Source: Acytostelium subglobosum LB1 (Eukaryota; Evosea; Eumycetozoa; Acytosteliales; Acytosteliaceae). From it: DNA of 64,000 nt. The notes beneath the pieces were generated by a model. That model worked only from the letters and a program-made list of their open reading frames with translations. It did not search any database and had not been told where the DNA came from. This document shows positions 53,461-56,704 of this stretch, one piece after another (position 1 is the stretch's first letter; the number at the start of each line of letters is the position of its first letter). The stretch lies in contig NW_012236523.1 in the NCBI RefSeq assembly GCF_000787575.1, positions 993,854 through 1,057,853 of the forward strand. Direction: 5' to 3'. A program made the position numbers and the translations under genes.

Positions 53461-53541
53461 TGTAATGTGTATAGATATAGAGATATAAGTTTGTAATAAT
53501 ATATATGAAAACGAATGAAAGATGAATGATTAGTAATGTTA

Positions 53542-53623
53542 TTGTCCAGTTAGTTCAAGTCGTTGGGTAATTCAATTCATTTCGATTATTTGGAATTTTT
53601 CATAATTAATTTGGAAGTTCACT
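53542..53623 (+). repeat. Left terminal inverted repeat
   Basis: 82 bp that match the reverse complement of 55998-56078 with only a few substitutions and single-base indels. The outer end is TTGTCCAG, preceded by TA, and the inner end is GTTCACT. Confidence 0.9.
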
Positions 53624-53699
53624 GCAAAACACAGCATCATGCAGTCAGTCAGGTAGCTTGTACAGATAATAGTAATTGGCAAATACACTTGCTCATTGT

Positions 53700-54485
53700 T
53701 TATTCGTCCGATTTGGATGTATCACTGGAGTCTTTCCTGATGTAGGGAGCAAGCTCTTGTCTCTGGAGCATCTGGAGGTACGTGTCAAGCCGTGTCAGTC
53801 CGATGCGATGCTCCTCGATGTGGAAGCGCATTATTTGCGCGATGTGCTCATAATACTCCACAACCTCCTGGAGTTTGTGGAAACTCAGCTCCTCAGTGGT
53901 GTAGTCTGACTGATTGAGATCGAGGGGCCCTTCTTTTCTGGCCCTCTTGACAGGACGAGCGGGCTCCTCATCGAGTCTGATTGGTGCTTTTCGAGTGTCG
54001 AGAACAATCATCTGTGATCTGTGACCACCATGTCAGTTAAAGTGTCAAAGTCCAAGGTCAATCATACATACTTACTTGTCATTTAAGACCGTCTTGGCCA
54101 TCTGGAAGTGGCTGTGATTGACAATGGTGCTTGCCTTGAGCTGCCCAAGATCGCCTACATCCGCTCTTATCTTGTCCAATTCGGGTCGGAGTGCCTTTAA
54201 CAAATCGGCCTTGTATTTGGTCAAGAACATTCTAAGAATCGGGCCATGTGACTTGTGCAAGCAGCAAAACCAATCTACACAAGTGTTGGTACAATTGCGG
54301 CATCTGCCTGGTTGATGGCATACACCTCAAGAGTATATTCCTACCGCCTCGTCAATTTTCCTAATGGCCTCGTTTATATACTCTACACTGCCTTTTTCGT
54401 CATTGGGAAAGAGCCCATCGAGCTTAGTTCTATAGTCCTTGTAGAGATCATGGTTGTACTTTGGTGCGTATTCTTTATTTGACAT
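53700..54485 (-). CDS. Transposon-borne accessory protein of unknown function
   Basis: Three exons on the minus strand (54345-54485, 54076-54251, 53700-54018) give 211 residues and lie wholly between the inverted repeats. The first intron (93 nt, GTAGGA donor, CACAAG acceptor) is set by phase. The product is helical and charged: KYNHDLYKDYRTKLDG, ILRMFLTKYKADLLKAL, then a basic cluster ARPVKRARKEG that looks like a nuclear-localisation signal, and a helical C-terminus. I recognise no domain and no catalytic motif. By analogy with two-gene DNA transposons such as PIF/Harbinger or Mutator, it may help the transposase bind ends or enter the nucleus; that is inference. It could also be a captured host gene. 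Confidence 0.7.
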
Positions 54486-54691
54486 CGTTGTCTATCTGTA
54501 TATTGTTTATATGTATACTGTGTAAATGTCAGGTGATCACAATGAAGAGAATGTTTTGTGATGAGGACGTGTCTGAACTGCTCGTAGGATATTTTAAATT
54601 TTGGCGCCGAAATTTGATCTTTGGTTGCACTGTTGATGTGCCAGTTGAGAATCATTTGATTCACAACAACATTTACTAACACACACAAGAC

Positions 54692-55857
54692 ATGGATAGA
54701 CAAAGAATAGAGAGGACTAGAATGAGAAAGCAGTTCAAAGGCTCTCGAAGTGGACACCATCATTATCTTCAGAGACTACGATCAAAGTTGCTTACAGCAC
54801 TTTACTCAAACACACATGGAGTTGCCGCAGCATTCACTATTCAGAATAATATTATACAAGTCAACCCATCACTCACTCGCCAGTCAAAGTCGTCGATCTA
54901 CTATCACCGCAAGAAATTGAGTGCTCAAGGAACGTATCATCCTCTTCTTCATGGTGGAAAACGATACTCTCTGCTTGATGATGTCAGGTTTGAGCAGCTG
55001 AAGGATTTCCTCCATAGATACATACTCGAGGCGCAACCAGAGAGTCTCAAAGAGATAGTTGACCATGTCAACACTCAGGTCGAGGACATCCAGTTCAGCA
55101 GATCATACATACGAAACGTCATCTCAGAACACCTGATGTTCTCGTGGAAGGTGCCAATCACAGTCCAGCATCAGAAGTTCACCTTGGAGAACCTAGAGAG
55201 ATATGTCTACTTCTGTCATTGGATCAGCCAAGTCGATCTTGATTCTGTTTACTGGCTTGATGAATCTACCTTTGAGTCCAAGAGTAAGTCTTACAACTCA
55301 AACAAACACTGCACTATTATGCTGTCGCTAATATGTTTGTTCAATGTCGAATAATAGAGTGTTGGAAGAGAAAGTTGTTGGCCCCTAGAGGCAGAGTGCA
55401 ACCCATTCGCGTCAACAGAGAGTCCTTCAGGGAGTCCTTCTCGTTGATGGCCATGATCTCGATCAACCACGGATCCTACGCGAGGATGAAGGACCATACT
55501 GAGGGTGACACCAACAACAGCATCACCTTCTGCTCATTCATCATCAATGCCATGGAGGCTGACTACATCCGACCCAATACCTACATCGTGCTCGACAATG
55601 CCAGTATCCACACACAGAGGGACCGCCTCCCTCTCATCCAGGAGATGCTTGATTTGATCAATGTCAAGTTGGTGTTCTTGCCAACCTATAGCCCTGAGCT
55701 CAACATCATCGAACTGTTGTTCGCGATGATGAAGAGAGAGTGCCGAGATAAGAACAGAACTGCATCCTTCCTCGACACAATCAAAAACGCGTTCAACAAG
55801 TATTCTAGCGATCCTACTACAATACTCAACTGGTGTCACAAGTGCTACAATAGATAA
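54692..55857 (+). CDS. DDE transposase, IS630/Tc1/mariner superfamily
   Basis: Two exons (54692-55283, 55358-55857, intron 74 nt) give 363 residues. The N-terminal 120 residues are basic and helical, suited to DNA binding. The catalytic core shows the acidic triad in context: first Asp in YWLDEST (about residue 190), second Asp in IVLDNASIHTQRD and the Glu in PTYSPELNIIELLF. These are the standard DDE_3 motifs. The frame is open throughout. A neighbouring divergent gene and flanking inverted repeats show it is still part of a full element. Eukaryotic-style splicing indicates the element is adapted to this host. Confidence 0.92.
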
Positions 55858-55933
55858 TAAACAGTGCCCGTAAAGCAAAGCTATTTCAATCAATATCTAT
55901 TATCCATTACCTCACTTGAAACATCCAATATCA

Positions 55934-55975
55934 TTGAATGAATGAATGAATGAATGAATGAACGAATGAATGAAA
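55934..55975 (+). repeat. GAAT tetranucleotide microsatellite
   Basis: About ten GAAT units between the transposase stop and the right inverted repeat, inside the element. Confidence 0.85.
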
Positions 55976-55997
55976 GCATCGATCACCCTACCATATG

Positions 55998-56078
55998 AGT
56001 GAACTTCCAAATTAATTTGAAAAATTCCAAATAATCGAAATGAAATTGAATACACAACGACTTGAACTAACTGGACAA
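55998..56078 (-). repeat. Right terminal inverted repeat
   Basis: 81 bp, the inverted partner of 53542-53623. The plus strand ends CTAACTGGACAA followed by TA. Confidence 0.9.
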
Positions 56079-56704
56079 TAATAGTGTATGATAGAAGTGG
56101 TGATATGATGAAAGTTGGTCGTCAGTTGGTCCTACCACCACCACATGTGCAAAGTGTTCGGATTGTGATAGTACCTACCTGGGTGGGTGGAACATGGGAG
56201 AGAGTTATTGTCAAAAAACAATAAAATTAATTAAATATCCAACAAGTTAAAGTTGAAGACAATGTTCAAATGATTCAAGATAACCATGTTGTCTTATGAT
56301 TGTAATAATAACAAAAAAAGAATGTTACAAATACCAACTTTTAGCTCTTAGTGATAATAATGCGACGACAATTGATAACAAGATGTCCTTGTGTGGTGAT
56401 CTGTTACTAGATATGAGTGGACTTCTTGGTTGAAGCCCCTTTAAACGTGAATGAAGGCAGTTAACAAATACAAGGGAAGAGCTTCAAATAACTAACTACT
56501 AATGTCAATCAACTCTCTCTTATTTGTCGACATAAGATATTACGTGATGAGTAGGTATTTCGACTTACAAAACTGTTTCAAATCACAGTTTTGGTGATAA
56601 TCCCACGAAAGGCTGAATCCAGTAAAAGAGAGGTCTACACCTCATTTGAGTTGTTGTTGTTGTACTTGTATTATTAGATTCAAATAACAAATATATATTA
56701 TAGA
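56079..56704. other. Spacer right of the transposon
   Basis: No gene is supported. The sequence is AT-rich with an ACCACCACC stretch near 56137 and a GTTGTTGTTGT run near 56651. It was probably part of the divergent promoter between the ArfGAP gene and the next gene before the insertion. Confidence 0.4.

Follow-up and report, generated by a model that had tools for sequence, protein, structure and literature searches.

Most Tc1/mariner elements are described as carrying one gene (PMC7731502), and for ISY100 the transposase alone has been reported as sufficient (PMC2170065). The ciliate elements TBE and Tec, in contrast, are Tc1/mariner elements reported to have three open reading frames (ORFs), one of them reversed (PMC7325037, PMC4724952); in TBE a 22-kD ORF is reversed and a 57-kD ORF is described as having zinc finger and kinase domains (PMC4724952, PMC7325037). 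The TBE clade is placed as sister to GIZMO, from the amoeba Entamoeba invadens (PMC7325037). Intruder DD38E elements, described from animals, are mostly 1.5–1.7 kb in length with a single ORF (PMC7731502). Harbinger elements have a Myb-like protein that reportedly interacts with the transposase, permits nuclear import, binds the element ends and diverges far more than the transposase (PMC9179366); the role of Harbinger-like second ORFs was called unclear in an earlier survey (PMC4482050).

An A+T content of 55% was reported with the genome of the social amoeba Acytostelium subglobosum, and Table 1 of that paper has one DNA transposon (PMC4334915); a survey lists only two Tc1/mariner elements in Amoebozoa (PMC7325037), so that, as far as this table and survey extend, the families described below seem to be largely uncounted. 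Judged by title and the start of the abstract, none of the three A. subglobosum papers matched for transposable elements deals with such elements, and no non-ciliate Tc1/mariner element with an accessory gene was found among the literature matches listed (subscription papers and Repbase lay outside the scope of the search). Ciliates already provide examples of Tc1/mariner elements with several genes; the recurrent two-gene plan of three A. subglobosum families reported here is a new variant.

Organization of the Element and Its Transposase

The window, a stretch of 64,000 nucleotides from A. subglobosum LB1, contains a real element of 2537 bp at 53542–56078, flanked by the target-site duplication TA on the left (53540–53541) and right (56079–56080). 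The left terminal inverted repeat (53542–53622, plus strand, 81 bp) begins TTGTCCAGTTAG and has the motif TTCAAGT at 53554–53560, and its counterpart on the right (55998–56078, minus strand, 81 bp) has the same motif at 56060–56066. The two ends are 88% identical over 73 nt in a gap-free comparison and 95% alike over 82 query positions, and the 12-mer TTGTCCAGTTAG occurs exactly at both ends and nowhere else in the window. The repeat comparison and the sequence thus bear out the inverted ends of about 81 bp and flanking TA proposed in the first-pass annotation.

The transposase gene lies on the plus strand, with exon 1 (54692–55283, ending ...DESTFESK) and exon 2 (55358–55857, which supplies the last two residues, D and E, of the DDE triad) separated by a phase 1 intron (55284–55357). 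The public protein SAMD00019534_058470 is this transposase, with the same intron and a later start codon of its own. The proposed DDE transposase with D, D and E in place is confirmed by a match to Pfam DDE_3 (4.4e-23), by a score of 105.8 bits against the IS630 model NF033545 (cut-off 100) and by the invariance of all three residues across nine aligned transposase rows; the second D and the E are 38 residues apart in the window transposase. A DDE_3-type transposase, also present in the two further families described below, together with inverted repeats and TA at both ends of the window, C21, C39 and C52 copies, places the element in IS630/Tc1/mariner. Only the trait of a single transposase gene is absent, a second gene sitting inside the ends; as the group includes TBE and Tec, a single gene is a usual rather than a defining trait. 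The first-pass assignment to Tc1/mariner with a second gene therefore stands, while its premise that such elements normally encode only a transposase is incomplete, the ciliate TBE and Tec elements having three genes.

The Divergent Accessory Gene

The second, accessory gene (54485–53700, minus strand) is divergent from the transposase gene and lies wholly between the ends, with a spacer of 206 bp (54486–54691) between the two start codons that is presumed to be a shared promoter region. Exon 1 (54076–54485) encodes a cysteine cluster, and its frame is continuous in the C21 copy; exon 2 (53700–54018, stop codon at 53702–53700) encodes the basic stretch PVKRARK and a predicted helical C-terminal part, and gives the same protein as the public SAMD00019534_058460, which also joins the exons across the intron GTAAGT...CAG at 54019–54075. 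In the window copy an in-frame TGA at codon 53 (54328–54330) falls within the Cys cluster, and SAMD00019534_058460 begins downstream of this stop. C21 and C54, the other two copies that cover codon 53, are both open there.

A model with two introns (54344–54253 and 54075–54019) was dropped, as both of these copies are open through the supposed first intron; because they read straight through in the same frame, the accessory gene has one intron (54075–54019). The spliced opposite-strand gene noticed at first pass is therefore present inside the ends, with one intron instead of two, and its frame is stopped in the window copy. As the TGA stops that frame, the window copy is not fully intact and the description of the element as intact does not apply to it.

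The two longest open stretches on the accessory strand reach 194 aa in the window copy, a length attained by 18 of 400 dinucleotide shuffles, and 251 aa in the C21 copy, attained by none of 400. All seven Cys of the C21 reading fall within residues 53–75, and downstream come a long helical stretch, the run PVKRARK and another helical stretch, the helices being predicted by low-confidence structure models (mean pLDDT 40.6 and 55.0). A Pfam scan of the accessory proteins gave no family above cut-off, with no Myb/SANT domain found, and a protein search using the older, two-intron model of the family 1 accessory protein recovered only the query itself.

Linkage of Both Genes among Genomic Copies

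Searches of the A. subglobosum genome (30.7 Mb in 56 contigs) gave, for the window element and its copies (family 1), at least 17 matches to the ends, at least 11 to the transposase and at least 11 to the accessory gene. The first-pass annotation had named transposase-only copies, or an accessory gene alone at a host locus, as findings that would speak against a linked pair. All four copies with both ends (window, C21, C39 with internal deletions and C52 interrupted by an N gap) carry parts of both genes, and a tblastn search with the accessory protein (the earlier model, lacking the Cys cluster) placed 20 of 20 matches in element copies and none at a host locus. Both genes are likewise present at all five places with parts of both sides, which comprise the same four and C54, where one end only is retained. 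Accessory sequence occurs at 10/10 places that retain the accessory-side end or the region next to it (window, C21, C39, C52 near 130 k, C7, C14, the end of C52, C47 near 2 k, the end of C8, and C48), and the transposase side at seven (window, C21, C54, C39, C52, C20 and the start of C8). The remaining family 1 copies break off at contig ends or N gaps. A lone end on C54 near 1,662 k (84%) has neither gene, and C43, C16 and C32 have transposase fragments only, with no recognizable ends or accessory gene.

The C21 copy is 99% identical to the window copy over the full 2537 bp, with a frame shift near the accessory C terminus, and the left end is missing from the C54 copy, whose transposase exon 2 is split. 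With the window copy stopped, C21 shifted and C54 truncated, none of the family 1 copies examined has both genes fully open. Relative to the window copy there are nine substitutions in C21, 17 in C54 and seven in C39, and these small numbers suggest recent movement; the C52 row, misaligned over its N gap (155/272, transposase exon 1), was left out of the difference counts.

Two Further Families Share the Layout

A protein search with the transposase gave 15 proteins, its own included. Together with local tblastn, protein searching identified two further families in the same genome, whose transposases are 26–27% identical to the window transposase in full alignment and ~25–34% identical over matched parts. 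In a tree built from 17 transposase rows, one supported group (97/94) unites the three families with six proteins, P0003–P0008; the order within it is not resolved, and the analysis marks families 1 and 3 as long-branched. In the search for relatives, 3 of 15 candidate stretches from viral contigs gave short matches, at the DDE end only.

Family 2 is represented by C54:1488089–1490240 (TA included), with ends beginning TTGTCCTCCTGA and relatives at C51, C55 and elsewhere, and family 3 by C47:513668–516797, an element of 3130 bp with ends beginning TTGGTCGAATCA and TA on both sides. Each of the two also has additional partial matches in the genome. In both, a second, spliced gene is transcribed divergently, in the direction of the left end, and encodes 309 aa in family 2 (with three unread codons) and 377 aa in family 3; apart from the two found in the public window proteins, the splice sites are our own models. 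The two longest accessory-strand stretches of each family were reached by 0/400 shuffles. An open transposase and an open accessory gene sit in separate copies of family 2: in the C54 copy the transposase is open and the accessory gene shifted with ~0.4 kb missing, and near 173 k on C55 the accessory gene is open and the transposase cut short in the stretch examined. The accessory gene is partly present (62 aa) in the C51 copy, and a C55 locus near 1,081.7 k has transposase pieces with no accessory sequence in the surrounding 3.4 kb. One family 3 copy has an open accessory gene and, apart from two unread codons, an open transposase, and is the best-preserved two-gene element among those seen. 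No relatives of the family 3 accessory protein were found at E ≤ 1 among 7999 candidates scored.

The three families have in common a TA site, TTG ends, a spliced transposase and a divergent spliced second gene. TTCAAGT starts at position 13 in all six ends. In families 1 and 2, though not in family 3, each end also has AGTTCACT at its inner edge. The pattern TATTG-N9-TTCAAGT was found only at element ends in the window and in 272,291 overlapping bases of loci, which, having been selected for elements, are a weak control. Families 1 and 2 agree in the position and phase of the transposase intron, and the introns of family 3 lie elsewhere.

All three accessory proteins have an N-terminal Cys cluster, comprising 6/7 Cys at residues 7–39 and 5/7 at 13–40 in the two families other than family 1; simulation attained such clustering in 0/200000 (family 1) and at frequencies of 0.0003 and 0.002, for windows picked after seeing the data. 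All three also have a basic stretch, identified by eye. The Zn2Cys6-like zinc cluster has the pattern C-x2-C-x6-C...C-x2-C-x6-C, which family 3 partly follows (E 0.13 to Zn_clus, short of the cut-off) and from which the Cys spacings of families 1 and 2 differ. By sequence comparison the accessory proteins are not alignable beyond chance, except that those of families 1 and 3 match weakly at the N terminus: shuffles reached the N-terminal alignment score in 22 of 1000 cases for families 1/3, 499 for 1/2 and 149 for 2/3, and the full-length score in 72, 796 and 300 of 1000, respectively. A three-way alignment was set aside, as it misplaces the Cys clusters. The accessory genes are nevertheless likely to be homologous, on the grounds of position and build.

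Comparison with Described Elements

Like TBE and Tec, the slime mould elements combine a Tc1/mariner-type transposase with additional element genes, but they have two genes, are ~2.5–3.1 kb in length, are spliced and reside in an amoebozoan host, and the second D and the E are separated by 37 or 38 residues (our own count) as opposed to the DD34E of TBE/Tec. The features by which TBE and Tec are recognized (three ORFs, among them a zinc finger/kinase ORF in TBE and a recombinase ORF in Tec, and in TBE also telomere-like ends) are not seen: two genes are modelled in the window element, its ends (TTGTCC...) are not telomere-like, and Pfam scans of its two proteins gave neither a kinase nor a recombinase. 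With Intruder DD38E the window element shares the D-38-E spacing, inverted ends and the TA target site, as for Tc1/mariner, and it is distinguished from the description of Intruder by the second gene and larger size.

PIF/Harbinger elements have a 3-bp target site. Neither such a site nor a Harbinger-type DDE transposase or Myb/SANT partner was found in the slime mould elements, which instead have a DDE_3/IS630 transposase, a TA site and a Cys cluster; the likeness lies in the two-gene plan with a fast-diverging partner of DNA-binding type, as reported for PIF/Harbinger (PMC4482050, PMC9179366).

The same genome also contains a family that we label conventional Tc1-like (C10 near 26 k, and C45). 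The C10 element likewise has a DDE transposase between inverted repeats, but measures ~1.6 kb repeat to repeat with 41-bp inverted repeats, and shows no second gene, both frames of >90 aa in 3.3 kb being transposase pieces.

Proposed Roles of the Accessory Protein

The reading that we favour, with modest confidence, is that of an IS630/Tc1/mariner cut-and-paste transposon with two genes, present in at least three families, in which the accessory protein would act as a zinc-cluster partner of the transposase and might be needed for transposition. The "helper protein" of the first-pass annotation is a fair description on this analysis, if a provisional one. The N-terminal Cys cluster is probably a zinc finger, as predicted from its cysteines, and may contact either the transposase or element DNA; nuclear targeting is the probable function of the basic stretch, which could carry both proteins into the nucleus. 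The helical part may pair with itself or with the transposase. The model for such a function would be the Harbinger Myb-like protein.

The main rival, which we consider unlikely, is a regulatory role, in which the Cys cluster of the accessory protein would bind the 206-bp spacer and damp transposase expression, so repressing the promoter or transposition. The divergent start codons 206 bp apart suit a shared, self-regulated promoter. In addition, the NF033545 match spans residues 53–332 of SAMD00019534_058470, so the transposase may bind the ends alone, and the ISY100 transposase is reported to act alone (PMC2170065). Set against these points, the nearest two-gene precedent is that of Harbinger-type partners.

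A role as a passenger, i.e. a captured fragment of a host gene with no part in movement, appears improbable. It would accord with the poor conservation of the accessory proteins between families and with the weak selection signal: the one diverged accessory fragment, on C48, differs by 15 changes in 77 codons with a dN/dS of 0.69, one in-frame codon insertion and a more changed region past the stop codon, so that purifying selection is not clear and the sequence comparison gives at best a hint of constraint. However, no host parent was found, since all 20 tblastn matches (with the earlier gene model) fall in element copies, and the three families match in orientation, position, Cys cluster and splicing, which could hardly result from repeated chance capture. 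It is very improbable that the accessory frame is an antisense ORF present by chance or otherwise spurious, for although the window copy is only mildly beyond chance and has a stop, the stretches in C21, family 2 and family 3 were never equalled by shuffling, GT-AG introns link long frames and the public SAMD00019534_058460 has the identical exon join.

Returning to the partner reading, if the gene is fixed in three diverged families of one small genome, part of the superfamily would have become two-component, and the role of the partner, whether in end binding, nuclear entry or self-control, would become testable. More tentatively, the elements may represent a distinct social-amoeba branch of IS630/Tc1/mariner whose transposase depends on an always-carried, fast-evolving zinc-cluster partner, which would be a further independent multi-component invention beside Harbinger/Myb and TBE.

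Degraded and Derivative Copies

Apparent accessory subfamilies (~91–96% alike; C7, C8, C14 and C47 near 2 k) were rejected because their differences are nearly all runs of any base to T/A; lying near contig ends or N gaps, these runs are probably base-call artefacts of the public assembly. The C16 fragment (stretch positions 1536–1993) retains transposase exon 2 in decayed form, with 62% identity to family 1, and represents an older lineage in which no accessory gene is recognizable. C48:1221600–1224200 holds, at positions 1660–1996, an old truncated copy with the last ~78 accessory codons and a shortened end; the accessory portion sits within a 224-aa stop-to-stop frame, and the copy is possibly a remnant, or possibly a fusion with a neighbouring frame. 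In family 2, the C51 copy has a nested repeat at ~858–1200 of the stretch, which matches C43, C13, C41, C21, C8 and C20 over about 190–350 bp, and a stretch of ~590 bp with family 2 ends on both sides (C26:304727–305318) is likely a non-autonomous (MITE-like) derivative of that family.
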